Assembly: GCF_025665335.1 (NCBI RefSeq)
Contig: NZ_CP106869.1
Location: forward strand, 2,506,501 to 2,570,500
Reading direction: 5' to 3'
Length of the DNA: 64,000 nt
From: Xanthomonas sp. AM6
GTDB lineage: Bacteria; Pseudomonadota; Gammaproteobacteria; Xanthomonadales; Xanthomonadaceae
The position numbers and the translations under genes are program-made. The notes under the pieces were generated by a model. The model saw nothing but the letters and a program-made list of their open reading frames with translations, was not told where the DNA came from and made no database searches. Position 1 is the first letter of the stretch, and each line of letters starts with the position of its first letter. Shown here one piece after another: positions 16,601 through 34,807 of this stretch.

Positions 16601-16604
<4 letters not shown>
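16218..16604 (+). CDS. Single-domain CheY-like response regulator
   Basis: The 128-residue protein consists only of a receiver domain. Asp11-Asp12, phosphoacceptor Asp57 (VLMDLAMPEMGG), a Ser in IVIASHF and the conserved Lys in NFVSKLSY complete the active site. No output domain is present. AAGGAAA precedes the ATG, and the stop overlaps the fleQ start (ATGA). It lies between rpoN2 and fleQ. FleQ lacks a phosphorylatable receiver, so a separate phospho-receiver encoded in the same operon could act on it or on the sigma-54 machinery, but that is only inference. Confidence 0.9.
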
Positions 16605-18091
<1,487 letters not shown>

Positions 18092-18281: not shown

Positions 18282-18297
18282 TGGCATATGGCTTGCT
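18282..18297 (+). promoter_or_regulatory. Candidate sigma-54 promoter of the glycan island
   Basis: TGGCATA, TGGC, TTGCT has full TGGCA and TTGCW cores with GG-N10-GC spacing. It lies in the 273-base gap between fleQ and the aminotransferase, about 70 bases before the chosen ATG. It would put the whole acyl-sugar operon under RpoN2 and an enhancer-binding protein such as FleQ. Confidence 0.6.
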
Positions 18298-18364
18298 TTC
18301 AGAAATCCGAACCGCCGCAACGCTCCGCGTCGCGGACTCTTCACAGGCATCCACGCAGGCCACC

Positions 18365-19543
18365 ATGCCCATTCCCGTCACCAGTCCGCTGCTGCCTCCC
18401 CTGGATGAGTTCGTGCCGTACCTGGAGAAGATCTGGAGCAGCCGCATCCTGACCAATGGCGGCGACATGCACCGGGCGCTGGAAAAGGCGCTGGCCGAGT
18501 ATCTGGGCGTGGGCCATCTCGCGCTGCTGACCAACGGCACGCTCGCCCTGCTGACCGCGCTGCAGGCGCTGCGCATCACCGGCGAAGTGATCACCACGCC
18601 CTATTCGTTCGTCGCCACCGCGCATTCGCTACTGTGGAAAGGGATCAAGCCGGTGTTCGTCGACATCGACCCGGTCACGCTGAACCTGGATCCGCACAAG
18701 ATCGAGGCGGCGATCACCCCGCAGACCACCGCGATCATGCCGGTGCACTGCTACGGTACGCCCTGCGACACCGCCGCGATCGAGCGCATCGCCGACACCT
18801 ACAACCTCAAGGTCATCTACGACGCCGCGCATGCGTTCGGGGTCAAGGACGAAGGCGGCTCGATCCTGCGCCACGGCGACCTCAGCGTGCTGAGCTTCCA
18901 CGCCACCAAGGTGTTCAACACCTTCGAGGGCGGCGCCATCGTCTGCCCGGACGAGAAGACCTACCAGCGCATCAGCCGGCTGAAGAACTTCGGCTTCGTC
19001 GACGAGACCACGGTGGTGGCCACCGGCATCAACGGCAAGATGAGCGAGGTGAACGCGGCATTCGGGCTGCTGCAGCTGCAGCACATCGATCGCGCCCTGG
19101 CGCAGCGGCAGGAGATCGACGCCGACTACCGGCGGCGCCTGGCGCACGTACCCGGCGTGCGCTGCCTGGCGCCGCGGCCGCCGGCGCTGGCCAACTACGC
19201 CTCGTTCCCGATCCTGATCGAGGACGGGTTCGCGCTGAGCCGCGACGGCCTGCACCAGCTGCTGCGCGAGCACGGCATCCTGGTGCGCCGCTACTTCTAT
19301 CCGCTGATCAGCGACTTCCCGATGTACCGCGGCCTGCCCTCGGCGGCGCCGGCCGGCCTGCCGGTGGCGCGGCAGGCGTCCGAGCGGGTGCTATGCCTGC
19401 CGATCTATCCGGGCCTGGACGCCGGCGACGTGGCGCGCATCGCCGACCTGATCGCCGGCGCCGCCAACGCATCGGCGCCCGCTCCCGACCAAAGCCGCAC
19501 TGCGGCGCTCCCCTCCTCCGCCCATCCCGTGGAACAAGAATGA
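18365..19543 (+). CDS. DegT/DnrJ/EryC1-family sugar aminotransferase (VioA-like)
   Basis: The 392-residue protein is a PLP-dependent nucleotide-sugar aminotransferase. Typical features are the SRILTNGGDM substrate region, the GTLALLTALQAL phosphate-binding helix, DAAHAFGV, and the Schiff-base lysine Lys182 in SFHATKVFNTFEGGA. The family makes amino-dideoxy sugars. The neighbouring acyl-ACP genes point to a 4-amino-4,6-dideoxyglucose (viosamine-like) product, as in the Pseudomonas syringae flagellin glycan. The frame stays open to about 18173, but conserved sequence and the sigma-54 site favour this ATG. The stop overlaps the ACP start. Confidence 0.85.
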   Translation: MPIPVTSPLLPPLDEFVPYLEKIWSSRILTNGGDMHRALEKALAEYLGVGHLALLTNGTLALLTALQALRITGEVITTPYSFVATAHSLLWKGIKPVFVDIDPVTLNLDPHKIEAAITPQTTAIMPVHCYGTPCDTAAIERIADTYNLKVIYDAAHAFGVKDEGGSILRHGDLSVLSFHATKVFNTFEGGAIVCPDEKTYQRISRLKNFGFVDETTVVATGINGKMSEVNAAFGLLQLQHIDRALAQRQEIDADYRRRLAHVPGVRCLAPRPPALANYASFPILIEDGFALSRDGLHQLLREHGILVRRYFYPLISDFPMYRGLPSAAPAGLPVARQASERVLCLPIYPGLDAGDVARIADLIAGAANASAPAPDQSRTAALPSSAHPVEQE

Positions 19544-19764
19544 GCCAAGACACGTTTATCGAGAACTTCCTGTCGGCGACCGACTTCCAGAATCCGGTCG
19601 AGGTGACCGCGGAGACCGTGCTGCGCGAGCTGCCCGAATGGGATTCGCTGGCCGCGCTCGGCGTCATCGTGATGTTCGACATGGAGTACGGCAAGACCAT
19701 CACCGGCGAACACCTGGCCGCCGCCGTCACCGTCGGCGACCTCTACAAGCTGACCGAGGCGTAG
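19540..19764 (+). CDS. Dedicated acyl carrier protein
   Basis: This 74-residue acidic protein has the phosphopantetheine attachment motif EWDSLAAL with Ser36 as the modified residue. A following helix (VIVMFDMEYGKTITGEHL) is typical of ACPs. It would hold the growing acyl chain for the synthase and reductases encoded next to it. The ATG overlaps the aminotransferase stop (ATGA), and the next gene follows one base after its stop, so the genes are tightly coupled. It is not the housekeeping AcpP, whose motif and surroundings differ. Confidence 0.9.
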   Translation: MSQDTFIENFLSATDFQNPVEVTAETVLRELPEWDSLAALGVIVMFDMEYGKTITGEHLAAAVTVGDLYKLTEA

Positions 19765-19765
19765 C

Positions 19766-20806
19766 ATGCCGACCTCCACGCTGCACAACGTGCGCTTTGC
19801 CGGCATGGCGACCTGCGTGCCCAAGCGCGTCGTCTCCAACCTGACCGATTGCCGGCCGCAGATCCGTTCCGAGCGCGAGCGGCTGGTGCGCAACATCGGC
19901 ATCGAGACCCGACGCATGGCGCCCGAATGGCAGTGCTTTTCCGACCTGGCGTTCGATGCCACGCAGGTGCTGCTGGAACGGCTGCAATGGCAGCGCGAGG
20001 AGATCGACGCGCTGATCGTGGTCACCCAGTCGCCGGACTATCCGATCCCGGCCACCGCGATCATCCTGCAGGACCGCCTGGGCCTGTCGCACGCCACCGT
20101 CGCCTTCGACGTCAACCTGGGCTGCTCGGCCTACCCGTTCGGCATCAACCTGCTCGGCTCGATGATCGCCGCCGGCGGAGTCAAGAAGGGCCTGCTGCTG
20201 GTCGGCGACCGCAGTGCCACCCTGGACGACCCGATCTTCTCCGATTCCGGCACCGCCACCGCGCTGGAATTCAGCGCCGATGCGCCGCCGATGTATTTCG
20301 ACCTCAACAGCGACGGCAGCGGCTACAAGGCGATCATCCTGCCGGTGGGCGGGCACCGCGAGCCGGTCGGCATCCAGCATCTGGTACCGTTCCGTGCCGA
20401 CGAGAACGATTACTGGCACCGCGGCGTGGATCTGCAGCTGGACGGCGTGGCGGTACTGAGCTTCTCCACCCAGCGGGTACCGCCGGCGGTGCAGAAGCTG
20501 CTCGACTACACCGGTGTGCCCAAGGACCAGATCGACTACTTCGTGTTCCACCAGGCCAACCGGATGATCAACGAGACCATACGCAAGAAGCTCGGCCTGC
20601 CGGCGGAGAAAGTGCCCTCGACCCTGTCCGACTTCGGCAACACCAGCGGCGCCTCGCTGCCGGTGACCATGACCGCGCGCATCAACAAGGAACTGGAGTC
20701 GGGACGCAAGCGCGTGCTGCTGTGCGGCTTCGGCATCGGCCTGTCGTGGGGCAGCTGCCTGGTGGATATCGAGGGTGCGGTGTTTCCCGATCTGATCGAA
20801 TCGTGA
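19766..20806 (+). CDS. 3-oxoacyl-ACP synthase III-like condensing enzyme
   Basis: The 346-residue protein is a KAS III/FabH-type thiolase-fold enzyme. It has the catalytic triad Cys120 (NLGCSAYPFGI), His262 (FVFHQANRMI) and Asn292 (FGNTSGASLP), plus the terminal glycine-rich LLCGFGIGLSWGS. Such enzymes condense a short acyl-CoA with malonyl-ACP. With the adjacent ACP and two SDR reductases it would make a short 3-oxo and then 3-hydroxyacyl chain. That chain could form the N-acyl group of an amino sugar, as with the 3-hydroxybutanoyl group on modified viosamine in P. syringae flagellin. Confidence 0.88.
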   Translation: MPTSTLHNVRFAGMATCVPKRVVSNLTDCRPQIRSERERLVRNIGIETRRMAPEWQCFSDLAFDATQVLLERLQWQREEIDALIVVTQSPDYPIPATAIILQDRLGLSHATVAFDVNLGCSAYPFGINLLGSMIAAGGVKKGLLLVGDRSATLDDPIFSDSGTATALEFSADAPPMYFDLNSDGSGYKAIILPVGGHREPVGIQHLVPFRADENDYWHRGVDLQLDGVAVLSFSTQRVPPAVQKLLDYTGVPKDQIDYFVFHQANRMINETIRKKLGLPAEKVPSTLSDFGNTSGASLPVTMTARINKELESGRKRVLLCGFGIGLSWGSCLVDIEGAVFPDLIES

Positions 20807-20808
20807 CG

Positions 20809-21564
20809 ATGGCGGCTTCCACCGAGGCATTCAGTCTGACGGACAAAGTCGTGCTGGTGACCGGCGCCTCCTCGGGCATCGGCGCCGCCACTGCCAGACT
20901 GTGCGCGCGCCTAGGTGCCAGACTGGTCATCACCGGTCGCGATGCCACGCGCCTGGCGGCCGTGGCCGACTCACTCGAAGGCGCCGGCCATGGCAGCGTG
21001 GTCGGGGATCTGACCGACGCGCAGACCCGGCAGCAGTTGCTCGATGCCGCCGACGGCTACCATGGCATGGTGTCCTGCGCCGGGGTCGCCGCACTGGTGC
21101 CGTTCCGCATGGCCGCTGAAGAGCATCTGCAGCAAATGCTGGCGGTCAACTACCTGGCGCCGATCACCTTGACCCAGCAGCTGCTGTTCAAGCGCCGCCT
21201 GCGCGACAACGCCTCGCTGGTGTTCGTGTCCGCGTTGTCGGCACGCGCCGCGCCGCAGGCGGCGGCGGGCTATGCGGCGTCCAAGGCCGCGCTGGAAGCG
21301 GCAGTGCGCACACTGGCGCTGGAGCAGGCAAAAAATGGCATCCGCGCCAACTGCATCGCGCCGGGCTATGTCGCTACGCCCATGCTGGAAAAACTCGGAA
21401 CCGCGGCGGACATGGACGACAAGATCGGCCTGACCCCGTTGGGCCGCATCGATCCGGACGACATCGCCAAGGGGGCCGTGTATCTGCTTTCCGCCGCGAG
21501 CCGCTGGATCACCCGCAGCACCTTGACCATTGATGGCGGGATCTCCCTGCCGATCCGCCTATGA
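20809..21564 (+). CDS. SDR-family oxidoreductase, probable 3-oxoacyl-ACP reductase (first)
   Basis: The 251-residue protein is a classical short-chain dehydrogenase. The NAD(P)-binding motif TGASSGIG lies at residues 18-25 and the catalytic Tyr155-x3-Lys159 is in GYAASKAAL. The FVSALSA segment supplies the serine, and the end reads LTIDGGISLPIRL. The ITGRDATRL segment after beta-2 suggests NADPH preference. The ATG lies two bases after the synthase stop; a GTG at 20803 overlapping that stop is an alternative start. The gene context indicates reduction of the ACP-bound 3-oxo group. Confidence 0.85.
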   Translation: MAASTEAFSLTDKVVLVTGASSGIGAATARLCARLGARLVITGRDATRLAAVADSLEGAGHGSVVGDLTDAQTRQQLLDAADGYHGMVSCAGVAALVPFRMAAEEHLQQMLAVNYLAPITLTQQLLFKRRLRDNASLVFVSALSARAAPQAAAGYAASKAALEAAVRTLALEQAKNGIRANCIAPGYVATPMLEKLGTAADMDDKIGLTPLGRIDPDDIAKGAVYLLSAASRWITRSTLTIDGGISLPIRL

Positions 21565-22340
21565 CAGACCAAGCCTCTATGCCTTCCTTCGATGCCGCCT
21601 CCGCGCTCTTGCGCGGCATGTATGGCCTGCAGGGCAAGACGGTGCTGGTGACCGGCGCGTCCAAGGGCATCGGCCAGGCGGTCGCGCGCAGTTGCGCCGC
21701 CGCCGGCGCCAGCGTGCTGCTGGCTGGGCGCGATATGGCGCGCCTGGAAGCGGTGCTGGCGTCGCTGGACGGCAGCGGCCACCGGCTGTTCGCCGGCGAC
21801 CTGAGCGATGCCGCCACGCTGCAGCGGCTGGCCGCGGAGAGCGGCAAGCTCGACGGCCTGGTGCACAGCGCCGGCATCCGCGGCCTGGCGCCGATGAAGC
21901 TGGTCGGCGAAGGTTTCCTCAAGGAAGTGCTGGACATCAACTACGTCGCGCCGATGATGTTGACCCGGCATCTGCTCGCGCGCCAGTCCATTCGCGCCGG
22001 CGGCTCCATCGTCTTCATCTCCTCCATTGCCGCGTTGACCGGAACCGTCGGCGTCGGTCCCTACGCCGGCTCGAAGGCGGCGCTGGTCGGCACGCTGCGG
22101 CCGCTGGCGCTGGAGCTGGCACGGCGCAACATCCGCGCCAACGCGCTGTGCCCGGGGCTGGTGGAGACCACGCTGATCACCGAGGACAAGAGCTGGTTCG
22201 AGGAAAGCCGCAAACGCTATCCGCTCGGCATCGGACAGCCGGATGACGTGGCCCTGGCCTGCCTGTACTTCCTGTCCGATGCCAGCCACAAGGTCACCGG
22301 ACAGGCGTTCAGCATGGACGGGGGCGTGGAATTCGCGTGA
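21561..22340 (+). CDS. SDR-family oxidoreductase, probable 3-oxoacyl-ACP reductase (second)
   Basis: This 259-residue paralogue of the preceding SDR has TGASKGIG at residues 31-38, a catalytic Ser in VFISSIAALTG and Tyr168-x3-Lys172 in PYAGSKAAL. The C-terminal LSDASHKVTGQAFSMDGGV is typical of FabG-like reductases. Its ATG overlaps the previous stop. Two adjacent reductases are more than one simple 3-oxo reduction needs. One may instead act on the sugar or on a product of the Rieske oxygenase encoded downstream. Confidence 0.85.
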   Translation: MTDQASMPSFDAASALLRGMYGLQGKTVLVTGASKGIGQAVARSCAAAGASVLLAGRDMARLEAVLASLDGSGHRLFAGDLSDAATLQRLAAESGKLDGLVHSAGIRGLAPMKLVGEGFLKEVLDINYVAPMMLTRHLLARQSIRAGGSIVFISSIAALTGTVGVGPYAGSKAALVGTLRPLALELARRNIRANALCPGLVETTLITEDKSWFEESRKRYPLGIGQPDDVALACLYFLSDASHKVTGQAFSMDGGVEFA

Positions 22341-22987
22341 ACAGACCATCCTCGTTTGGCCATGTCTTGATCGTGGGCGCCGGTGGCTTCGGCAAGGGCG
22401 TTGCGGCCATAGCTTTTCACGACGATCCGGCGTTCGGCCGGGATTGGGACATCAAGGGTTTTCTGGACGATCGCGCCGAACTGGAGCAAACGACGCGATG
22501 GCCGATCATCGGTAGTCCGCACACCTATCAACCGGTAGAAGGCGACATTTTTGTTTGCGCGCTAGGCGACCCCGCAGTGCGCCGTCGCTACACCCAGGCC
22601 TTGCTTGAAAAAGGTGCGTACTTCATGGTGCTGCGTCCAGGCCTGCGCGAGGCATCAGCGACCCGGATCGGGCGCGGCAGCCTGTTCGAGCCAGGCGTGT
22701 CGATCGGCGCGGACAGCCAACTCGGCGAATTCGTCACCGTGCTCTCAACCACCATCATCGGCCACGACGTGACGATCGGCGACTACGTGCAGATCGGCAA
22801 TTTCGTGTTCATCGGCGGGGGCGTCCGCATCGGCAGCGATGTGGTCATCCATCCGCATTCCACCCTGATCCCGGGGATCACGGTCGGCGACGGCGCGGTG
22901 ATCGGTGCCGGCAGTGTGGTAGTCAGGGACGTTCCGCCCAACGTCACCGTGGCCGGCAATCCCGCGCGCACCATCTTCAGCAAATAG
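22337..22987 (+). CDS. NeuD/PglD-type hexapeptide-repeat acyltransferase
   Basis: The 216-residue protein starts at a GTG that overlaps the preceding stop. Residues 9-30 form a Rossmann-like sugar-nucleotide-binding start (VLIVGAGGFGKGVAAIAF). From about residue 110 it has left-handed beta-helix hexapeptide repeats (VSIGADSQLGEFVTVLSTTI, then VTIGDYVQIGNFVFIGGGVR, then GITVGDGAVIGAGSVV). His in IIGHDVTIG is a likely catalytic base. Family members acetylate the amino group of UDP/dTDP-4-amino-dideoxy sugars. Here it may transfer the ACP-bound acyl group to the aminotransferase product. Confidence 0.85.
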   Translation: MNRPSSFGHVLIVGAGGFGKGVAAIAFHDDPAFGRDWDIKGFLDDRAELEQTTRWPIIGSPHTYQPVEGDIFVCALGDPAVRRRYTQALLEKGAYFMVLRPGLREASATRIGRGSLFEPGVSIGADSQLGEFVTVLSTTIIGHDVTIGDYVQIGNFVFIGGGVRIGSDVVIHPHSTLIPGITVGDGAVIGAGSVVVRDVPPNVTVAGNPARTIFSK

Positions 22988-23000
22988 CAGGCCCCGCACC

Positions 23001-24140
23001 ATGCCCCGCCATGCACTCGATGCCGAGCACTACATCAGCGAGCACAGCCTGCGGCTGGAACAGCAGAGGCTGTTCGGCAAGCTGTGGAACTTCGTCGGCT
23101 TTTCCTCGATGGTGCGCGAACGCAACCAGTTTTTCTCGCGCCAGGTGGGCGGCGTGCCGGTGTTGGTCCAGCGCACCGATGCGGGCATCCGCGCTTTCCT
23201 CAACCAATGCCCGCATCGCCAGTCGGCGATCCAGATCGAAGCGCAGGGCAAGCGCCCGCTGGTCTGCCCCTATCACGCTTGGTCGTTCGGCCCCGAGGGC
23301 GAGTTGCGCGGGATACCCAACTCCGGCCTGTACCAGTTCAGTGCCGAAGAGAAAGCCGGCATCTGCCTGACCCGATTTCACTTGGAACAGGTCGGCCAGT
23401 TGCTGTTCGTGAATTTTTCCGACGACCCGCTGCCGCTGGAGGAACAATTCGCGCCGGACTATCTGGAGAACCTGCGCAACGCGGCCTCGCACCTGGATAC
23501 GCAGATCATCTACAGCTGCCACCGCGTGCGCTACAACTGGAAGTTGAACATGGAGAACGTCAAGGACTACAACCATGTCCCGTTCGTTCATCCCAAGACG
23601 TTCAGCCCACTGATGATGGAGGCGAGCAAGCCCTCCGCCGGCGTCGAGCGCGCCGCGGACGTGCCCTCCGCAGTGGTGCAGCTCCTACAGGCGTCTGCGT
23701 GCCCGGCGTTGAGCGAACTGAGCTTTCCGGTCAAGGCGCCAATCACGCCGCAGGACAACTGGTTCCGCGCGCTGTGCGACGTCTACGGCGAGGAATCGGC
23801 CTACTACAACTGGTTCGTCTATCCCAACGTGAACTTCTGCAGCGTGCGCGGCGAGTACTTCCTGCTGCAACAGTACGACCCGGTGTCGGCGCACGAAACC
23901 GACTACCACCTGTGGGTAATGACCGCGCGCCGAAAGAGCGAGCACACTGATTTCACCGCGCTGTTGAGCAACTTGATCCGCGGCGAGCGCACCGTCATCG
24001 CCGAGGACACGGTGCTGCTGGAACGCATGCAGGCCGGCTTCGGCGCGCATTCGCCGCGCTTCATGCACGGCGACTACGAAACGCAGCTGGTGCGGCAGCA
24101 CCTGTGGTATCGCGCCAACGTGCTGGGAGAGCCGGCATGA
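23001..24140 (+). CDS. Rieske non-heme iron oxygenase, catalytic subunit
   Basis: The 379-residue protein has a Rieske [2Fe-2S] domain (Cys70-x-His72 in CPHR, and Cys89-x2-His92 in CPYHAWSF). Its catalytic domain holds the mononuclear iron motif NVKDYNHVPFVH (Asp, His, His) and a late AEDTVLLERMQAG segment like those of ring-hydroxylating oxygenase alpha subunits. Such enzymes hydroxylate, demethylate or desaturate, taking electrons from a separate reductase that is not encoded here. In this operon the substrate is probably the sugar or its acyl group. It lies 13 bases after the acyltransferase and overlaps the next gene. Confidence 0.9.
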   Translation: MPRHALDAEHYISEHSLRLEQQRLFGKLWNFVGFSSMVRERNQFFSRQVGGVPVLVQRTDAGIRAFLNQCPHRQSAIQIEAQGKRPLVCPYHAWSFGPEGELRGIPNSGLYQFSAEEKAGICLTRFHLEQVGQLLFVNFSDDPLPLEEQFAPDYLENLRNAASHLDTQIIYSCHRVRYNWKLNMENVKDYNHVPFVHPKTFSPLMMEASKPSAGVERAADVPSAVVQLLQASACPALSELSFPVKAPITPQDNWFRALCDVYGEESAYYNWFVYPNVNFCSVRGEYFLLQQYDPVSAHETDYHLWVMTARRKSEHTDFTALLSNLIRGERTVIAEDTVLLERMQAGFGAHSPRFMHGDYETQLVRQHLWYRANVLGEPA

Positions 24141-24754
24141 AGTCGCTCGTGTTGCTGGGCGAAGGCGCCGCGTTGGAAGAGGCGCAGCGTACCGCGCACG
24201 ACTGCGGACTGGCCCATGCGTGTCTGCAGCTGACCGCAGCCGACCACTACAACTTCGATCTCGGCGAATTGCTGGCGGGCTACGCCGCCGACGCCACCGA
24301 GGTATTCGTCGCGCTCGACGAACGCGCGGTCAACCATGCGCGCCACAAGTTACTGGCCGACGTACGCCTGGCCGGCTACCGCGTGATCGATCTGGTCTCG
24401 CCGCATGCCCACGTCGATGCCGGCGTGCGGCTGATGGGCAACGTGCATGTCGGGCCGGGCTGCAACCTGGCGTCCGGCACCCGCATCGGCCCCGGCAGCT
24501 GGCTGGAGCGGCAGGTGATCGTCGAACGGGACGTGCGCCTGGCTGCGTGCGTGACGCTGCATGCCGGCGTTCACCTCGGGCACGGCGTGGAGGTTGGCCA
24601 AGGCAGCACGCTAGGCCGCGGCAGCATCGCGCGGGATAAGGCGAAAGTGGGCCGGCACTGCGAATGGCTATTGCCTGGCGAGCTGCCAGACCTGTTGCCA
24701 GACCGCTGTTTCTACGACGCCCTGATGCCGCAGGGCGCGCAGATCCTGACTTGA
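24137..24754 (+). CDS. Second NeuD-like hexapeptide-repeat transferase
   Basis: The 205-residue protein has a degenerate N-terminal sugar-binding domain (MKSLVLLGEGAALEEAQRTA). It continues into hexapeptide repeats from about residue 95 (VSPHAHVDAGVRLMGNVHVG, then SGTRIGPGSWLERQVIVERD, then VTLHAGVHLGHGVEVGQGST). Its start overlaps the Rieske gene stop. The glycine-rich Rossmann motif is weaker than in the first copy, and the catalytic His of that copy is not obvious. It may acylate a second position or be a divergent structural partner. Confidence 0.75.
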   Translation: MKSLVLLGEGAALEEAQRTAHDCGLAHACLQLTAADHYNFDLGELLAGYAADATEVFVALDERAVNHARHKLLADVRLAGYRVIDLVSPHAHVDAGVRLMGNVHVGPGCNLASGTRIGPGSWLERQVIVERDVRLAACVTLHAGVHLGHGVEVGQGSTLGRGSIARDKAKVGRHCEWLLPGELPDLLPDRCFYDALMPQGAQILT

Positions 24755-24761
24755 GGACACC

Positions 24762-25892
24762 ATGAATATCCTGACCCACCGTTGTAGCGAACCGGACCTG
24801 CTCGATGCCTGCACCAAGGCCGACGGCGTCTTGTTCCTGGCGCCCAGCTCCCATCTGGGCCGGATCTATGCCACGCGCGTGGCCACCGCGCTCGCCAGGT
24901 TGTCGCCGGGTACCAGGATGATCGCGCTGGACGACACGTTGCATGCGCAAGGCGCGGCGGCCGCAGGCTTCGACGAGGTGCTGCCGACGCAGGCCTACCG
25001 GACCGAGGCAAGGTTCGCGGACCTGCCAACGGTGAACTGCGCAAACTCACTTTCGGTCTGGCTGCACTTCGACGAGTTGTCGAGCGGCGGCAACGGCCGC
25101 CAAATCGACCTACCTGAACTGCTGTATGCGCTGGATATCACGCTTGTCTATCAGACCGGCCGGGTGACGCGCGAGCAGACGCTGGCGCATGCAATACAGT
25201 TCGCCGCCTTGCGCGGACGTTTTGCCGATGCGCTGAGCGCGCAGACGCTGGACGCATTGCTGCAGCTGCGGACGAACGGCGATCGACGTGCCTTGCTCGA
25301 CGTCATCTGTCCGCTGGAGCAGGAATACTTCTCGGTATTCCGGGCCGACGCGCATCCGATCCGGCTCGGCGTCGACGAACACTATGTGGATATCGGCGCT
25401 TACGACGGCGATACGGTGAAAAAATTCAGGATCGCCAGCCGCCACGCCTACGCCTCCATCCATGCGTTCGAGCCCGACCCGGCCAATTTCGTCGCCATGC
25501 AGCGCAATCTGGTTGCCGATGGCGGCCGCACCGTCCTGCACAACCTCGCCGCGTCCGACTCCGGGCACCCGCTGGCGTTCTCGGCTAGCGGCAACATGGG
25601 CAGCCGCGTCGAAGCCGGCGGCAGCGTCCAGGTCCCAGGCGCGCGCCTGGACGATGTGCTCGACCAGGTCACTCTGCTGAAAATGGACGTGGAGGGCTTC
25701 GAGCCGCAGGTACTACGCGGTGCGGCGGAGTTGATCGGCAAATGCCGTCCGCGTATGGCCATCACCTGCTATCACCATGCCCTGGACCTGCTGGACATCG
25801 TCGCCGTGCTCGACCAGATCTATCCGAACGCGCGCCTACGGCTGCGCCACTACTCGATGTTCTTCTACGACACCATCCTCTACGTGGAGTGA
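24762..25892 (+). CDS. FkbM-family SAM-dependent methyltransferase
   Basis: Residues from about 205 to 375 form an FkbM-type methyltransferase. The SAM-binding loop is VDIGAYDGDTVKKF (from residue 209), followed by the acidic HAFEPDPANFVAM strand end and the family signature LKMDVEGFEPQVLRGA. The N-terminal 200 residues are a separate domain of unknown fold. FkbM enzymes O-methylate sugars and related compounds; flagellar viosamine in P. syringae is 2-O-methylated, so a similar role is plausible. GAGGACACC precedes the ATG, 7 bases after the previous stop. It is the last gene of the first block. Confidence 0.85.
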   Translation: MNILTHRCSEPDLLDACTKADGVLFLAPSSHLGRIYATRVATALARLSPGTRMIALDDTLHAQGAAAAGFDEVLPTQAYRTEARFADLPTVNCANSLSVWLHFDELSSGGNGRQIDLPELLYALDITLVYQTGRVTREQTLAHAIQFAALRGRFADALSAQTLDALLQLRTNGDRRALLDVICPLEQEYFSVFRADAHPIRLGVDEHYVDIGAYDGDTVKKFRIASRHAYASIHAFEPDPANFVAMQRNLVADGGRTVLHNLAASDSGHPLAFSASGNMGSRVEAGGSVQVPGARLDDVLDQVTLLKMDVEGFEPQVLRGAAELIGKCRPRMAITCYHHALDLLDIVAVLDQIYPNARLRLRHYSMFFYDTILYVE

Positions 25893-26193
25893 GCCACCGT
25901 ACAAGCCGACAGGTCTGGGGCCACCGGGCTGGAATGACCATCAGCAAGCTTGCGGTCGCATCGACTGCAACGCGGTGAACAGGCGGCCTCCCTAGGTGGA
26001 TGCATTTGCCCTGAGCCGACACAGGCGGCGTCGCGCGGCGCACCATCTGCGGCATCCCAACAAACCATCGACAGGCATGAATCCTGCATCAGGGTTGCAG
26101 GCCCGCCCTCCATACCTTGCCCTGCGCCATTCCTTGAGCTTTCGGCAACATCGCAACACACTGCGGTGCGCCATCCACAATGGACCACCACGG
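25893..26193. other. Gap between FkbM methyltransferase and the next gene; nothing recognised
   Basis: About 300 bases without a convincing gene. The downstream frame stays open from 25996, but its predicted sequence is arginine-rich and unlike a protein start. I see no sigma-54, FliA or terminator motif. It may mark the join of two modules of the island. Confidence 0.4.
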
Positions 26194-28071
26194 ATGACAT
26201 TGAAAATTGTCCTGCTGCCAGATCTGATCAGGGAAACGCGCGCGTTCCCCGACGCATTCTTTGATCTAATCCGGGAGCCGATCCGCCAGGGCTGCGGCGT
26301 CGATATCGGCGCCCCCCCTGGCGTTGCGACGTCGGGCGGGCTGGGGCATGGGTTCGACGTCACCCGGTTCCGGCAGCTGGCACTGGAAGGCGGCGGCAAC
26401 TGGCCCACGCGCTATCACCAGATCACCGTGCAGGCGCGCGACTACTTGTTGCAACACTTGCACGGCAGCGACCTGGTGCTTTCCTTCGAAATGCCGCCGT
26501 GGCTGGCCGACCTGTGCACGCAACAGCGGATCGCCTTCCTCGATATCCGCATCTCCCCGCTGCGCTTCGGGCGCGATCTGTACATCGCGCTGCGTGGCGC
26601 CGATCCGGCTCTGTCCCGACGTATCGCCGAGCATGTGGTGCTAGCAGAGGAGCTGCGCATGGAGGCCGCCGTGCTGTCCGCCAACGTGCGTATGCATCAG
26701 CGCAGGATGCGGGAACAACGCGGCTATGCCTTCCCCGAACTGGACGGGGCCATGCTGTTCGTCGGCCAGGTCCCTTACGACGCGTCGCTACTCACCACGG
26801 ACGGCCGCTCGCTGCGTTGCGAGGATTTTGCCGAGCAGCTGAAACAGCTGTGCGCATCGCGGCGCTTGCTATACAAGCCGCACCCCTTCGCGGGTGAATT
26901 CGCCCAGCAAGAACGTACCGCGCTTGAGCGTATCACCGGCAAGGCCGCGAGCGTTTGCCTGCAGAATGCCTACCAGGTGCTGAGCACGCAGGACGATCTC
27001 GAACTGGTCGGCATCTCGTCCGGACTGCTCCAGGAAGCGGTTTGGTTCGACAAGAAGGCACATACCTTGTTCGAGCCGTTCGTGGCGCTTGCGCCAGCCG
27101 ACGCAACCAGTACGCAGGACTACCAACAGATCCACTTCAAGTCGTTCTTGTCGCCTGGTTTTTGGCACCAAATCCTGGCCCCCGAGCGCGCGCCGCCGCG
27201 ATTGAGCGAGCTGCCGGCGCTGATGCACCATCACGCGCGCGAAACCTTGGACCATTGGTGGGATTACTCCAAGGTCCTGACCTGGGAGCGTAGCTTTCCC
27301 TACGAGTCGTTCACTCGATCGGGCGGCGGACTGGTCCAACAGCGCGTCGAGCAGATCGAACAGGCGCTGGAAGGCGGCGCGATCGGCAATCAAACAAGCT
27401 TCAGGAAAGGCGCACAGCAGGAAGTAGAACTGCACAAGAAGCTGTCGATCGCACTCTATTCGCGCCTCGCCTCGACGTATCCATCCATCGACCAGGCGTT
27501 GCTCGAGAACAGTGCTCCCGCCGAATACATCGACAAAGTCCTGGATGCGGCGTATTACCAGAGCCTGCACGAGAACAACGCGCTGTTCCAGCGCAACAAC
27601 TGGCTGATGCCGTATGCGAGCCTGCTCGCCGAACGCCGCTTCGCGCACGTGCGTGAGGTTGGTTGTGGTAACGGAGCCTTCGTTGCGGAGATCGCCAAGT
27701 CGGTGCCCCGCGTCATCGGCTTGGACTGGGCCAGGTCGCCGGATTTTCCGCAAGGTCACAACATCGAGTTCTGCCAACAGGATCTCACCAGTTCCTCCTT
27801 GGAACACGTCGACCTGAATTGCTCGGCAGACGTGCTGGAGCATATCCAGACTCGCGAGCTACCCACGTTGATACGTTCGTTGCACGACACCGCCCGTTTC
27901 AACTTCCACGTGATCGCGTGCTACGACGATGGTCACAGCCATGTCTCGATATTTCCGCCTGACGTGTGGCTCTACCTCTTCAGGCAACAATCGCCCGACT
28001 ACCGGATCCTGGATCTTTCGATCCGGCACGGAAACGTCAGCCATGTCGTCTGTGCGATCACCAACCTATGA
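26194..28071 (+). CDS. Fusion of a glycosyltransferase-like domain and a SAM methyltransferase
   Basis: The chosen ATG gives 625 residues. Residues 1 to about 360 include YKPHPFAGEF and VGISSGLLQEAVWFDKKAHT, a pattern seen in GT-B-fold transferases of surface polysaccharide synthesis (phosphate-site KPHP followed by a Gly/Ser-Ser-containing motif). Residues from about 470 form a class I methyltransferase with VREVGCGNGAFVAEIAKSVP, then GLDWARSPDFP and SADVLEHIQTRELPTL. The exact reaction of the first domain is not recognised. The frame is open upstream; this start was chosen because the conserved-looking sequence (MTLKIVLLPDLIRET) begins here. Confidence 0.6.
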   Translation: MTLKIVLLPDLIRETRAFPDAFFDLIREPIRQGCGVDIGAPPGVATSGGLGHGFDVTRFRQLALEGGGNWPTRYHQITVQARDYLLQHLHGSDLVLSFEMPPWLADLCTQQRIAFLDIRISPLRFGRDLYIALRGADPALSRRIAEHVVLAEELRMEAAVLSANVRMHQRRMREQRGYAFPELDGAMLFVGQVPYDASLLTTDGRSLRCEDFAEQLKQLCASRRLLYKPHPFAGEFAQQERTALERITGKAASVCLQNAYQVLSTQDDLELVGISSGLLQEAVWFDKKAHTLFEPFVALAPADATSTQDYQQIHFKSFLSPGFWHQILAPERAPPRLSELPALMHHHARETLDHWWDYSKVLTWERSFPYESFTRSGGGLVQQRVEQIEQALEGGAIGNQTSFRKGAQQEVELHKKLSIALYSRLASTYPSIDQALLENSAPAEYIDKVLDAAYYQSLHENNALFQRNNWLMPYASLLAERRFAHVREVGCGNGAFVAEIAKSVPRVIGLDWARSPDFPQGHNIEFCQQDLTSSSLEHVDLNCSADVLEHIQTRELPTLIRSLHDTARFNFHVIACYDDGHSHVSIFPPDVWLYLFRQQSPDYRILDLSIRHGNVSHVVCAITNL

Positions 28072-28622
28072 ACGCGCCAAAGCTGCATATCGGCTGTGCC
28101 TCGATACGACTCGACGGCTACATCAACATCGACTCCCGGCAGACGCAGGCAACCGATCATGTCTGCCATGCCGGGGCTATCGCGATCGTCGCCCCCGGCA
28201 GCGTCGCCGAGATCTATTCGCGGCATATGCTGGAACACCTCGACCCGAACGAAGCGCGAGAAACACTGCGGCACTGGCACCAACTGCTTGCGCCGGCAGG
28301 CGTGCTTCACGTGGTGGTCCCTGACATCCTGTTCCACGCTCGCCAGTTGCTTGGCCTGGAGCGCAGCACCCTGGCAGACCAGAACTTGCATGCCTTCGCT
28401 GGTTTCTGGGGATGGCGCGACGAGGCGCGCGGCGGCGACCGGGAGGATGCGCATCGTTGGGGCTACAGCGAGCAATCCTTGACTGCCGTCCTCACTGACG
28501 TCGGCTTTGCCTCGGTGCGCAGGCTGCTGGACGGCCCGGACAGCGATCCCTGGCACCTGAACTTGATTGCGCGAAAGGACGCTGATCCTGGCGTTCGGGA
28601 AGCCGACGTTCCGGAAGCGTGA
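28068..28622 (+). CDS. Small SAM-dependent methyltransferase
   Basis: The 184-residue protein starts at an ATG overlapping the preceding stop. It has features of the type 11 methyltransferase group often found in glycan clusters: LHIGCASIRLDGYINIDSRQ (SAM-binding start), IYSRHMLEHLDPNEARETLR, then HQLLAPAGVLHVVVPD. The C-terminal part (EDAHRWGYSEQSLTAVLTDV) also fits predicted SAM-dependent methyltransferases of polysaccharide loci. It may methylate a sugar of the flagellin glycan. It is the last intact plus-strand gene before the damaged glycosyltransferase copy. Confidence 0.75.
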   Translation: MNAPKLHIGCASIRLDGYINIDSRQTQATDHVCHAGAIAIVAPGSVAEIYSRHMLEHLDPNEARETLRHWHQLLAPAGVLHVVVPDILFHARQLLGLERSTLADQNLHAFAGFWGWRDEARGGDREDAHRWGYSEQSLTAVLTDVGFASVRRLLDGPDSDPWHLNLIARKDADPGVREADVPEA

Positions 28623-28735: not shown

Positions 28736-29265
28736 ATGACACCGATGCCCGACGACGCCCCCTCTCTTCCAACGCCCTGGCCAGCATCGTCATGCTGACT
28801 ACAAATTCCGCTACTTCAAGCGGACGCTGGACAGCGTGCTCGGGCAAACCTATCCGGCGCTGGAACTGGTGATCTGCGACGACAATCCCCATGGCACGAT
28901 CGTCGCGGCGGTGGAGCACCGGCGCGGCGACGCGCGCTTCCCGATCCGCTACACGAAGAACCCGGTCCGCCTGGTGAGCTCGGCAGGACCATCAAGGGCA
29001 TCGCCCTGGCCGAGGGCGAGTACGTCAAGTTCCTGCCCGATGATGACGTGCTGGGGCCGGCCTCCTCGCGCCGGCAGTACATCGACGGCGACGATGCGCC
29101 GCTGGCGGACATCCATGCCCCCCAGTTTTCCGTTCGCCGGCGATGTGCTCCTCGACGGCCCCGAACTGCCGTCCTTCCTCGCCGACCACACCATCAACTT
29201 CATCGGCGAGCCCAACTGCGTGCTGCGCCGGCGCCAGGCGTGCTGGACCTGGGCGATTCAAGTCT
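28736..29265 (+). pseudogene. Decayed partial duplicate of the glycosyltransferase at 30656
   Basis: This stretch aligns base for base with about 30656-31230, the N-terminal GT2 domain of the downstream glycosyltransferase. Long identical runs include GCTGGACAGCGTGCTCGGGC and CTGGAACTGGTGATCTGCGA. It is broken by several one-base deletions (near 28790, near 28800 and near 28975), a missing block of about 55 bases near 29055 (corresponding to roughly 30956-31010), and a changed end after about 29245. No reading frame survives. The similarity stops shortly before the minus-strand gene at 29301. Confidence 0.85.
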
Positions 29266-29300: not shown

Positions 29301-30218
29301 TCAGGAATAACTCCCGCCAGTATTAACGTTCCCGGCCACGCTTCCTGGAAATACATTTTGGCCTTTCCCGTTAACCCAAATCACCCCATTCGTATTGACT
29401 CCATACCGCTGGCCCGTGGCCGCTCCGGAGAACGTAAATACGAAGTCACCGCCATTTATGCTACCCAAACGACCAACGCTAGCGAAAGAACCAGTAAAAG
29501 CCGGCGTACCTATCAAGGTAACGTTAATGCCAAAATTAATTAGTTGACCGCCATCGACTACCAAATAATGGAAAGAACCACCTCCAGTGATACTGTAGTT
29601 GCCTGATACGATGCAAACACCATTGCGCGAGACGAGGATTTGGTTGCGGGTCATTGCTGCAAACACGTGACCGCCCTGGAAAGTACACAACGCTCTATTG
29701 GTGACCGAGATGCCGTTTACTGTGTCCCCTCCACCTAAAGTGAAACCAGAAACCTGAACCGTGTTACCGTCACCCAGCGTAAGGAGGTATCCCGCGGTAT
29801 TACGCCAAATAGCAGATGTGCTACCTACAAACCGCACGACGCCACCTGTCACGCTACCCATCACAACATTTTCCACGTAGGTTCCGTCTGCGACATTGAT
29901 AATTACCGTATATCCGCATAACAAATAACGTGTCCGCAGCACAGTCACAGCATGCTGTATCGTTTGGAATGCCGTCGCAGCGCTTAGCCCATCATTGGAA
30001 TCACTGCCCGTGTTGGAGACGTACAAAGACAAATCCTGAGTCAAGGCAATGGCGTAAGTAATGTAGCTATTCGCGCTAGTACCCATCGCGAACCGACCTT
30101 CATCACTGATGAAATATGGCTCGCTGGCAGCGAGTTCACCAGCCGCCGCAGCAGCATCAAACTGCGCGCGCGTACCGCTTTTTACATAAATATTGGCGCC
30201 CGAGATTGCATCCGGCAT
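29301..30218 (-). CDS. Phage tail-fibre/spike-like beta-helix protein
   Basis: This is the only minus-strand gene in the window. The 305-residue protein has an N-terminus typical of phage tail fibres (ASEPYFISDEGRFAMGTSAN). A right-handed beta-helix start with SNTGSDSNDGLSAATAFQTI follows, then repeated beta strands (residues 100-280). It ends in a tail-fibre-like YGVNTNGVIWVNGKGQNVFP followed by AGNVNTGG. GAGGGG lies 9 bases before the ATG. Its base composition is clearly more AT-rich than the neighbours. No other phage gene is nearby. It may be a cargo gene or a remnant of a mobile element, perhaps binding or cleaving a surface glycan. Confidence 0.7.
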   Translation of the reverse strand: MPDAISGANIYVKSGTRAQFDAAAAAGELAASEPYFISDEGRFAMGTSANSYITYAIALTQDLSLYVSNTGSDSNDGLSAATAFQTIQHAVTVLRTRYLLCGYTVIINVADGTYVENVVMGSVTGGVVRFVGSTSAIWRNTAGYLLTLGDGNTVQVSGFTLGGGDTVNGISVTNRALCTFQGGHVFAAMTRNQILVSRNGVCIVSGNYSITGGGSFHYLVVDGGQLINFGINVTLIGTPAFTGSFASVGRLGSINGGDFVFTFSGAATGQRYGVNTNGVIWVNGKGQNVFPGSVAGNVNTGGSYS

Positions 30219-30655: not shown

Positions 30656-33600
30656 ATGACTCCCACCCCCCTGGTCAGCATCGTCATGCCGGCCTACAAG
30701 TTCCGGTACTTCGAGCGAGCGCTGGACAGCGTGCTCGGGCAGACCTACGCGGCGCTGGAACTGGTGATCTGCGACGACAACCCCGATGGCACGATCGCCG
30801 CGGCGGTGGAGCGCAAGCGTGCCGCGGCGCGCTTCCCGATCCGCTACCAGCGCAACCCCAGCCGCCTGGGCGAGCTAGGCAGCACCATCAAGGGCATCGG
30901 CCTGGCCCAGGGTGAGTACATCAAGTTCCTGCACGACGACGATGTGCTGGAGCCGGACTGCGTCGCCGCGCTGGTCCACGCCATGCAGGCGGGCCCGAAT
31001 GTGGTGCTGGCCTCGTCGCGCCGGCAGCGCATCGGCAGCGACGATGCGCCGCTGCCCGACATCCACGCCACCAGCTTCCCGTTCGCCGGCGACGTGGTGC
31101 TCGACGGCCCCGAACTGCTGTCCTTCCTCGCCGACCACACCATCAACTTCATCGGCGAGCCCAGCTGCGTGCTGTGCCGGCGCCAGGACCTGGTGGAGAT
31201 CGGCGACCAGTTGATGATGCTCGATGGCCGCACGATCCACTGGGTCGGCGACCTGGCCCTGTACGCCAAGCTCCTGCACCGCGGCAACCTGGCGCTGCTG
31301 GCCAGGCCGCTGACCCGCTTCCGCGTGTCGCAGGAGCAATTCAGCCAGGCCGGCCGCGACCGGCCGGGGATCGGCGACCAGGGCCACGAGGATTTCCGCC
31401 GCGGCGTGCGTGCGATGGGCTGGTACCGCGGCGACGGCGACGCGCGCCTGGTCCGCGTCGCCGCGCTGGACGGCGGCGAGGCGCAGCCGGTCGACCTGCT
31501 GCAGGCGATCCAGGCCGCGTATGCGCGCGGCCGCGCGCAGCTGGCGTTGCTGGACTGGCAGGCGCGGCGGCAGCTGCCGCCGGCCAAGCAGGCGCTGCTG
31601 GAGGCGCGCCTGGCGGAACTGGGCGGCGGCGCGACGATCGCGGTGTTGCTCGATGCGCGCGGCGCGGACGCGGCCGCGCTGGAGGCGAGCCTGCGCAGCC
31701 TGCTGCTGGACGGTGTGGCCTTCGCCACGCTGCGCGTGGCCGTGCTCGGCGACCCGGCGGCCACGCCGTGGCCGGATGCGCGGGTCCGGCACCTGCCGCT
31801 GGCGCCCGGCCAGGACGCGGCGGGCCGCAACGCCGCGCTGGCCGGACTCGGCGACGCCGAGTGGTTCCTGCGCGCCAGCGCCGGCACCCGCTTCTGCGCC
31901 GGCGGCCTGCTGCGGCTGGTGCTGGAACTGGCGCAGCATCCGCAGTGCAGCGCGCTGTACGCCGACGAGTGGCTGGCGCTGGACGGGCAGACGCTGGCGC
32001 CGGTGCTGCGCCCGGATCCGGATCTGGACCTGCTGCTGGGCAATCCGCTGGCCACCGCCGGCCATTGGGTCTTCCGCCGCGCGCTGGTGCAGGAGCTGGG
32101 CGGATTCGATCCCGCCCACGACGGCGCCAGCGAACTGGAGCTGATCCTGCGCCTGTTCCTGCGCGACGCCGGCGCCGGCATCGCGCACCTGCCCGAGCCG
32201 CTGCTGATCGCGCCGCCGGCCGATGCCGCCGCCGGCGCCGAGGCACGCCGGCATGCGGTCGCCAGCCACCTGCAGGCACGCGGCTACGCCGACGCCAGGG
32301 TCGAGGTTCTGCCCGGCGGCCTGCATCGCATCGACTACGCCCACGCCCAGCAGGCGCCGGTCTCGATCGTGAGCATCGCCCAGGACAATCTGCCGGCACT
32401 GCAACGCCTCGTGGTCGGCCTGCTCGAGCACACCGCCTACCCCGCCTACGAACTGCTGCTGGTCGACAACGCCAGCACCTCGCCGGCGGTCGGCCAGTGG
32501 CTGCAGGCGGTGGCCGAGCTGGGCAACGGCCGCATCCGCGTGTTCGCGCTGGAGCAGCGGGTCGCGCCGGCCGAGGCGCGCAATCTCGCCGCGACCCAGG
32601 CGCAGGGCGACTACCTGCTGTTCCTGGATGCCGACAGCGCCGTGGTCCAGGGCCGCTGGTTGCACGAGCTGATGAACCACGCGCAGCGCCCGGAGGTCGG
32701 CATCGTCGGCGCCAAGGGCGTGTCCGCGGACGCCACCATCAGCCACGCCGGGCTGCTGCCGGGGCTGCTGCCCGGCGCCGGCCATGCCTTCGCCGGCGAG
32801 CCGATGGCGCAGGCCGGCTACCTGGGGCGGCTGCAGGTGGCGCACCGCTACAGCGCGGTGTCCGAGCGCTGCATGCTGGTGCGGCGCGAACTGTTCCAAC
32901 GCCTGTCCGGGTTCGACGCGGCCGGCTTCGCCGACGGCGGCGCCGACGTGGACCTGTGCCTGCGCGCGGCGGCGCTGGGCGAATGGACGGTCTGGACGCC
33001 CGAGGCGCTGCTGCTGCAACCGCCGGCGCCGCCACGGCCGGAAAGCGCCGACGACGCCCTGCTGCAGCGCTGGCTGCCGGCGCTGGCGCACGACCCGGCG
33101 TACTCGCCGAGCCTGGGCCTGGAGCAGGCGGGCGGCTTCAAGCTGGGCGAATCGGAGTTCTCCTGGCAGCCGCTGTCGTGGAAGCCGTTGCCGCGGATCC
33201 TGGCGCACCCGGGCGACGCCTTCGGCAGCGGCCACTACCGGGTGATCCAGCCGTTCCAGGCGCTGGCCGAGGCCGGCCGGATCGACGGCGTCTACTACGC
33301 GCGGCTGCTCGATCCGGTGGAGATGGCGCGCGTCGCTCCCGATGCGGTGGTCGTGCAGCGCCGGGTCGGCGACGCGGAACTGGCGAAGATGGAACGCATG
33401 GGCCGCTTCTCCAGCGCGTTCAAGGTCTACGAACTGGACGACTACCTGCCCAACCTGCCGCTGAAGAGCGTGCACCGCGAGCAGATGCCCAAGGACGTGC
33501 TGCGCTCGCTGCGCCGCGCCGCCACGCTGGTGGACCGGGTGGTGGTGTCCACCCCGGCCCTGGCCGATGCCCTCGCCGGCCTGCATGCGGACATCCGCGT

Positions 33601-34177
33601 GGTCCTCAACCGGCTGGATCCGCGCATGTGGGGCGAGCTGCCCTTGACGGCCAGAACTGCCACCGGCGGCAAGCCGCGGGTCGGCTGGGCCGGCGGCGCC
33701 AGCCACACCGGCGACCTGGAACTGATCGCCGACGTGGTGCAGGCGCTGGCCGGCGAGGTGCACTGGGTGTTCATGGGCATGTGCCCGGAGCGGCTGCGCC
33801 CGCACGTGGCCGAGGTGCACCCGGGCGTGGACTTCGAACGCTACCCGCAGGCCCTGGCCGCGCTGCGCCTGGACCTGGCGCTGGCGCCGCTGGAAGACAA
33901 CCTGTTCAACCGCTGCAAGAGCAACCTGCGCCTGCTCGAATACGGCGCCTGCGGCTACCCGGTGGTGGCCAGCGACCTGGCGCCGTACCAGGGCGCGCTG
34001 CCGGCGACCCTGGTCAAGAACCGCTTCCGCGACTGGGTCAACGCGATCCGCATGCACCTGGCCGATGCCCAGGCGCGTGCCGCGGCTGGCGCGGCGCTGC
34101 ACGCGGCGGTGCGCCGCGACTGGATGCTGGACGGCGCCAACCTGCAGGCCTGGCGCGCGGCCTGGCTGCCGGACTGA
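30656..34177 (+). CDS. Large multi-domain glycosyltransferase of the flagellar island
   Basis: The 1173-residue protein appears to carry four glycosyltransferase-like domains. Residues 5-290 form a GT2 domain (VSIVMPAYKFRYFERALDSV, acidic metal-binding Asp94-96 in HDDDVLEP). Residues about 330-570 form a degenerate GT2-like part. Residues about 590-830 form a second complete GT2 domain (PVSIVSIAQDNLPALQRLVV, Asp658-x-Asp660 in LFLDADSA). Residues about 840-1170 form a GT-B-type domain (YELDDYLPNLPLKSVH, then RVGWAGGASHTGDLELI). It probably builds the flagellin glycan. An in-frame ATG at 30614 is an alternative start. A damaged copy of its first domain lies at 28736. Confidence 0.85.
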   Translation: MTPTPLVSIVMPAYKFRYFERALDSVLGQTYAALELVICDDNPDGTIAAAVERKRAAARFPIRYQRNPSRLGELGSTIKGIGLAQGEYIKFLHDDDVLEPDCVAALVHAMQAGPNVVLASSRRQRIGSDDAPLPDIHATSFPFAGDVVLDGPELLSFLADHTINFIGEPSCVLCRRQDLVEIGDQLMMLDGRTIHWVGDLALYAKLLHRGNLALLARPLTRFRVSQEQFSQAGRDRPGIGDQGHEDFRRGVRAMGWYRGDGDARLVRVAALDGGEAQPVDLLQAIQAAYARGRAQLALLDWQARRQLPPAKQALLEARLAELGGGATIAVLLDARGADAAALEASLRSLLLDGVAFATLRVAVLGDPAATPWPDARVRHLPLAPGQDAAGRNAALAGLGDAEWFLRASAGTRFCAGGLLRLVLELAQHPQCSALYADEWLALDGQTLAPVLRPDPDLDLLLGNPLATAGHWVFRRALVQELGGFDPAHDGASELELILRLFLRDAGAGIAHLPEPLLIAPPADAAAGAEARRHAVASHLQARGYADARVEVLPGGLHRIDYAHAQQAPVSIVSIAQDNLPALQRLVVGLLEHTAYPAYELLLVDNASTSPAVGQWLQAVAELGNGRIRVFALEQRVAPAEARNLAATQAQGDYLLFLDADSAVVQGRWLHELMNHAQRPEVGIVGAKGVSADATISHAGLLPGLLPGAGHAFAGEPMAQAGYLGRLQVAHRYSAVSERCMLVRRELFQRLSGFDAAGFADGGADVDLCLRAAALGEWTVWTPEALLLQPPAPPRPESADDALLQRWLPALAHDPAYSPSLGLEQAGGFKLGESEFSWQPLSWKPLPRILAHPGDAFGSGHYRVIQPFQALAEAGRIDGVYYARLLDPVEMARVAPDAVVVQRRVGDAELAKMERMGRFSSAFKVYELDDYLPNLPLKSVHREQMPKDVLRSLRRAATLVDRVVVSTPALADALAGLHADIRVVLNRLDPRMWGELPLTARTATGGKPRVGWAGGASHTGDLELIADVVQALAGEVHWVFMGMCPERLRPHVAEVHPGVDFERYPQALAALRLDLALAPLEDNLFNRCKSNLRLLEYGACGYPVVASDLAPYQGALPATLVKNRFRDWVNAIRMHLADAQARAAAGAALHAAVRRDWMLDGANLQAWRAAWLPD

Positions 34178-34444: not shown

Positions 34445-34807
34445 ATGAGCGACTCCATCAGTTCCATCCTCTCGCAGATCCGCAGCTACCAGAGCCAGGT
34501 CGGCCAGGCCGCGCCTGCGCAGGTGGCCGATGCCGGGCGCAGCAATGCGATCGAGGGCCTGACCGGGACCCAGGGCACGCAGGGCCCGAGCTTCAGCGAA
34601 ACCCTGCGCAGCGCGATCAGCGGCGTCAACGAGACCCAGCAGAAGGCCGGCGATCTGGCCAAGGCCTTCGAAATGGGCGACCCCAACGCCGGCCTGGCCA
34701 AGGTGATGATGGCCGCGCAACAGTCCCAGGTGGCGTTCCGCGCCACCGTGGAAGTCCGCAACCGACTCGTCCAGGCGTACCAGGACGTGATGAACATGCC
34801 GCTGTAA
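34445..34807 (+). CDS. fliE: Flagellar hook-basal body protein FliE
   Basis: FliE is the small adaptor between the MS ring and the rod. The 120-residue product has the family C-terminus (FEMGDPNAGLAKVMMAAQQS, then QVAFRATVEVRNRLVQAYQD, ending VMNMPL) and an internal FSETLRSAISGVNETQQKAG block. It opens the basal-body operon behind a sigma-54 promoter and is followed by fliF after 11 bases. Confidence 0.96.
   Translation: MSDSISSILSQIRSYQSQVGQAAPAQVADAGRSNAIEGLTGTQGTQGPSFSETLRSAISGVNETQQKAGDLAKAFEMGDPNAGLAKVMMAAQQSQVAFRATVEVRNRLVQAYQDVMNMPL

Follow-up and report, generated by a model that had tools for sequence, protein, structure and literature searches.

A putative modular flagellin-glycosylation island with a Rieske oxygenase-hex2 gene pair in Xanthomonas sp. 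AM6

Between the flagellar genes fleQ and fliE of Xanthomonas sp. AM6 lies a run of genes for sugar- and acyl-modifying enzymes; what do these genes make, and what does the product decorate? We addressed this question in a window of 64,000 nucleotides, the whole stretch of DNA analyzed here, which covers bases 2,506,501-2,570,500 of a 4.92-Mb single-contig genome. As judged from sequence, the genes probably constitute a modular flagellin-glycosylation island, which would place an oxygenated N-acyl viosamine-type sugar and a residue resembling 3-deoxy-D-manno-octulosonic acid (Kdo) on flagellin. The core is an already known type of island; the new part is its modular build, a gene pair formed by a Rieske oxygenase and a beta-helix protein named hex2, and a Kdo-transferase fusion.

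Gene content of the fleQ-fliE island

The island genes are all open, intact, and on the + strand, flanked by fleQ (16601-18091) and fliE (34445-34807), in agreement with a first-pass annotation of this DNA that had placed a set of enzymes running in one direction between these two genes. The features are as follows (SDR, short-chain dehydrogenase; ACP, acyl carrier protein; KAS III, beta-ketoacyl-ACP synthase III).

18282..18296, +, sigma-54-type promoter site TGGCATATGGCTTGC, 68 bases ahead of the aminotransferase start
18365..19543, +, DegT-family sugar aminotransferase, VioA/DesI-like (PF01041)
19540..19764, +, ACP-like protein of 74 amino acids (weak PF00550 match, gene order, likeness to XCV2012)
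19766..20806, +, KAS III, VioS-like (family match; Cys/His/Asn)
20809..21564, +, SDR 1, FabG/VioR-like (family match)
21561..22340, +, SDR 2, FabG-like (family match)
22337..22987, +, VioB-like hexapeptide N-acyltransferase (TIGR03570, PDB match, catalytic His)
23001..24140, +, Rieske non-haem iron oxygenase (PF00355, PF00848)
24137..24754, +, hex2, left-handed beta-helix protein paired with the Rieske oxygenase (PerB/PglD/VioB fold)
24762..25892, +, FkbM-family methyltransferase (family match)
26194..28071, +, 625-amino-acid fusion of a KrkA-like retaining Kdo-transferase domain and a C-terminal methyltransferase (structure and family matches)
28068..28622, +, small methyltransferase-like protein of 184 amino acids (PF13489)
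30656..34177, +, VioT-sized glycosyltransferase of 1173 amino acids (two GT2 domains, GT1-like end)

A DegT aminotransferase, a KAS III, a FabG-like reductase, and a VioB-like acyltransferase occur here in one cluster, and an RmlB gene is found elsewhere in the genome. The best PDB match of the aminotransferase is 2po3. Alignment to 4efi confirmed the earlier observation that the KAS III has an intact Cys/His/Asn set, as all three catalytic residues line up. The VioB-like protein exceeds the cut-off of TIGR03570 (NeuD/PglB/VioB family), has VioB (7txp) as its best PDB match, and keeps the catalytic His, which is present in 63 of 63 sequences.

According to the accessible part of its description, the viosamine island of Pseudomonas syringae pv. 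tabaci 6605 contains vioA, vioM, vioT (1,173 amino acids), vioS (KAS III), vioB, vioR (reductase), and acp (PMC3927599). The same text reports that vioA, vioB, vioT, and vioR mutants have flagellin without modified viosamine, that the modified viosamine of a vioM mutant lacks the methyl group, and that the sugar is 4-N-(3-hydroxybutyryl)-2-O-methyl viosamine (PMC3927599). When matched to that description by annotation and size, the window has a counterpart for all seven vio genes, those of vioM and acp being candidates, and its glycosyltransferase has the same size as VioT, which supports the first-pass view that the two gene sets are related. SDR 2, the Rieske oxygenase, hex2, the 625-amino-acid fusion, and the small methyltransferase are extra in the window. 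The P. syringae island is described as adjoining a glutamine synthetase gene, whereas that of the window lies between fleQ and fliE.

The gene order itself is shared by XCV2000-XCV2013 of Xanthomonas campestris pv. vesicatoria 85-10, listed among flagellar-cluster genes in an annotation table (PMC3826837). As in the window, the tabulated genes include, in this order, an aminotransferase, an ACP (XCV2012, at the position equivalent to the ACP-like gene), a KAS III, two SDRs, an acetyltransferase, a Rieske protein, and a hypothetical protein in the place of hex2; thus, the gene order of the window is not new. The portion of that paper available to us gives annotation only and does not use the word glycosylation. 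XCV2000-XCV2013 and the ten-gene gigX island of X. oryzae share the fleQ-fliE place with the window, but in the partial accounts available, the tailoring genes behind the pair differ. In a literature search that covered few subscription papers, nothing relevant beyond this annotation table linked Rieske proteins with flagellin glycosylation, and no paper was found that joined viosamine, acyl carrier protein, and flagellin.

Other Xanthomonas carry the gene set beside fleQ as well, and of 20 genomes in the genus, 18 have the KAS III gene, so the set is not a chance assembly. The idea that it is peculiar to Xanthomonas sp. AM6 was therefore rejected. The same 18 genomes carry a full-score hex2 (≥278 bits) about 4 kb from the KAS III gene, and the named loci outside the genus include Pseudomonas, Oxalicibacterium, and Azoarcus.

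The Rieske-hex2 gene pair

Residues C70, H72, C89, H92, H192, H197, and D336 of the Rieske protein are invariant in 28 sequences, and D189 is kept in 27. We take them to be the CxH and CxxH ligands of the Rieske cluster and the 2-His-1-carboxylate iron site. Since these ligands are conserved, the oxygenation step proposed in the first-pass annotation appears plausible. The only domains matched were Rieske, Ring_hydroxyl_A, and VanA_C. Protein matches at E 1e-30 occur in 30 of 297 genomes of the family, from 2 of its 54 genera. At E 1e-60, a profile search across the phylum found at least 3 of 398 genomes, including that of the window; it is no proof of absence elsewhere, since at most four candidates were scored per genome.

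Could this oxygenase act on a nucleotide sugar, as NamH does? In the accessible parts of two papers, CMAH is described as a Rieske-domain hydroxylase of a nucleotide-sugar N-acyl group and NamH as one of an N-acyl group (PMC8227644, PMC10050696), both with the Rieske domain joined to a UlaG/lactamase-like domain, whereas in the window it is joined to Ring_hydroxyl_A. Since the UlaG/lactamase-like domain was not among the domains matched, membership in the CMAH/NamH group was rejected, and the likeness is an analogy of possible reaction.

In 70 of 72 testable cases, the Rieske gene is followed by hex2. The hex2 product has the whole fold of the sugar N-acyltransferases PerB, PglD, and VioB, that is, an N-terminal domain followed by a left-handed beta-helix; structure searches returned acyltransferases and other beta-helices and exclude nothing else. 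Against TIGR03570, it scores 67.3 bits, under the family cut-off of 160.8. In PHROGs, hex2 matched one family of unknown function, and neither the Rieske protein nor the 625-amino-acid protein had a match. At the position of the catalytic PerB His141, the window has Arg, and 61 of 71 homologues have Pro, Ala, Gln, Ser, or other residues, whereas the islands' VioB proteins always keep this His. We therefore rejected the idea that hex2 is merely a second VioB, and of the two hexapeptide transferases of the first-pass annotation, only the VioB-like one retains the catalytic His, so that two working enzymes are not supported. Other genomes of the genus hold a stand-alone Rieske-hex2 pair at a nonflagellar site (L077-L086), and no such pair was detected in the genome of the window at E 1e-30.

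The Asn and Arg in the N-terminal motif of hex2 are kept in 71 of 71 sequences, and hex2 probably still holds a nucleotide sugar, although the usual acyltransferase base has been lost. We tentatively propose that the Rieske protein and hex2 form a new two-component nucleotide-sugar oxygenase, in which hex2 would descend from sugar acyltransferases, no longer transfer acyl groups, and instead hold the substrate for the oxygenase. The cassette would move between flagellin glycan islands and also stand alone and, with the Kdo-transferase/methyltransferase fusion, would lead to an undescribed flagellin glycan of oxygenated acyl-viosamine and Kdo. Rieske oxygenases and beta-helix acyltransferases are usually trimers, so a symmetric complex of the two is possible. 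Alternatively, hex2 might be a true acyltransferase with another base, acylating the hydroxyl made by the Rieske enzyme or a second position, so that the pair would catalyze two consecutive steps. The shared fold leaves room for this, but the loss of the His in most homologues, together with the lack of any other conserved His column among 28 hex2 sequences, makes it rather unlikely.

Module exchange among islands

Module comparison was based on 48 loci holding all six compared genes; in seven further loci, at least one of the six was missing. Pairwise identities correlate at 0.71-0.86 within the aminotransferase-ACP-KAS III group and at 0.95 between Rieske and hex2, with 0.62 for Rieske-VioB and a weak 0.22 for Rieske-KAS III. 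Because the genomes are related, permutation tests gave significance for all module pairs tried, weak ones included. VioB type I occurs with Rieske type I in 14 loci and with type II in 2, and VioB type II occurs with Rieske type I in 7 loci and with type II in 25; the Rieske and hex2 types are concordant in all 48. Hence, the Rieske module has been swapped separately from the SDR/VioB module in 9 of the 48 loci. Among type II alone, the correlations are 0.58 for Rieske-VioB and 0.84 for Rieske-hex2.

Module borders are also visible in DNA similarity to the window, compared in 13 loci. Similarity ends at the KAS III stop (20806) in L106, L095, and L041 and at the end of VioB (22978-22979) in L043 and L070. 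L041 becomes similar again between 23001, where the Rieske gene starts, and 24747, close to the end of hex2. Not every border is sharp, since the match continues through SDR 1 in L107 and L094.

These exchanges bear on a further possibility, namely, that the substrate of the Rieske enzyme is not a nucleotide sugar but the acyl chain before transfer, whether ACP bound or free, or that the enzyme demethylates. In favor of this alternative, its sequence neighbors include glycine betaine and carnitine monooxygenases, and it matches the vanillate O-demethylase C-terminal model. Its constant partner, however, has a nucleotide-sugar-enzyme fold with the invariant Asn and Arg, and the separate swapping of the Rieske and SDR/VioB modules also argues against an acyl-chain substrate, so that we consider this alternative unlikely.

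Flagellar setting and proposed glycan

In 38 of 50 loci, a sigma-54-type site precedes the aminotransferase gene, compared with 0.6 expected from base shuffles, in a count that allowed several spellings and estimated gene starts from gene ends. Its conservation in front of the island would tie the island to the flagellar regulon. Within the window, sigma-54-type matches are not enriched (34 versus 40.6 in shuffles), and they were rejected as stand-alone evidence; only conservation counts. The gigX1-10 genes of X. oryzae are under RpoN2/FleQ control, according to the accessible part of a review (PMC8657755). The window also holds a flagellin gene (9629-10813). Its FleQ shares 98% identity with the FleQ of X. 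bonasiae FX4 (L071; L107), and the strain belongs to the albilineans-bonasiae side of the genus. Decoration of lipopolysaccharide (LPS) or exopolysaccharide in place of flagellin is very improbable: LPS and capsule typically involve Kdo transferases and rare amino sugars, and KrkA, WbbB, and KpsC are the nearest solved relatives of the 625-amino-acid protein, but the fleQ-fliE position, the conserved sigma-54-type site, and the correspondence to islands proven, in the partially accessible reports, to act on flagellin all speak against it.

Returning to a flagellin glycan, the vio counterparts and the conserved promoter-type site support the acylated amino sugar pathway first suggested for this DNA, now as a flagellin-linked, viosamine-type sugar. 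What we observe are the gene content, the folds and intact motifs, the Rieske-hex2 pairing, the swapping of modules, and the conserved promoter-type site; the scheme itself we infer throughout, from each reaction and the acyl group to the oxygenation site, the step order, the Kdo donor, and the flagellin target. The aminotransferase would convert the RmlB product to dTDP-viosamine (dTDP, deoxythymidine diphosphate), and KAS III and the ACP would assemble a short beta-ketoacyl-ACP for reduction by the SDRs. The VioB-like enzyme would then place the acyl group onto the amino nitrogen, the Rieske oxygenase with hex2 would hydroxylate the acyl chain or the sugar, and the methyltransferases would O-methylate the sugar. 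The VioT-like transferase would attach the sugar to the glycan of flagellin, and a Kdo-like residue would be added by the KrkA-like domain.

Several observations weigh against the proposed island and pair. The best NCBIfam model for the aminotransferase, DesI (dTDP-4-dehydro-6-deoxyglucose aminotransferase), scores below its curated cut-off. The ACP-like protein reaches 16.8 bits with PF00550, under the Pfam cut-off of 20.8, so that the cluster's "own ACP" of the first-pass annotation has the right place in the gene order but not the family score. Ten of 71 hex2 proteins retain the catalytic His, hex2 is missing behind two Rieske homologues that have space for it downstream (the second copy in L065, and L104), and L095 holds an extra hex2 without a Rieske gene of its own. 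When type I is taken by itself, Rieske correlates with VioB (0.82) almost as strongly as with hex2 (0.85). A reductase to serve the Rieske enzyme is missing from the cluster; the genome has four FAD_binding_6 matches at other places. Lastly, Delftia/Comamonas-type clusters with the same KAS III (L066-L069) have a more distant Rieske gene (154-164 bits), within the cluster or near it, and no hex2; such glycan pathways may have arrived at an oxygenation step repeatedly and by more than one route.

The 625-amino-acid protein matches KrkA in fold, with the nucleophile Asp present; a methyltransferase alone was thus rejected for this protein, which differs from the retaining Kdo transferases KrkA and WbbB by its fused methyltransferase domain. 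A kdsB gene is found elsewhere in the genome. The three methyltransferase domains reported earlier are indeed present, although not as three plain enzymes. Overlapping genes, also reported earlier, are borne out by 4-base ATGA/GTGA overlaps at 19540, 21561, 22337, 24137, and 28068. Neighbors up to 25892 are joined by a 4-base overlap or separated by at most 13 bases; a gap of 301 bases follows between 25892 and 26194, and the start at 28068 overlaps the end at 28071. The limits first assigned need revision, as 18282 is the start of the sigma-54-like site, with the aminotransferase starting at 18365, and an end at 28622 is too short: the unit should reach through the glycosyltransferase at 30656-34177.

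Ahead of that gene, positions 28766-29256 hold a decayed copy of its 5' part, in pieces 85-93% alike, and L106 and L107 likewise have pieces of the glycosyltransferase gene ahead of the full gene; these fragments are perhaps leftovers of island exchange. A 305-amino-acid open reading frame (29301-30218, - strand), opposed to the island genes where G+C is low (0.55), has weak phage-tail-like matches, and homologues lie inside the islands of L093, L092, and L041, also opposite to the island genes.

Flagellin glycans affect the perception of flagellin by plants, and swapping of whole functional modules seems to be how the islands diversify the glycan, so that glycan structures should be predictable strain by strain. 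If the Rieske protein and hex2 are indeed one enzyme, they would represent a route to hydroxylate activated sugars that is distinct from CMAH and NamH, and an acyltransferase fold put to new use.

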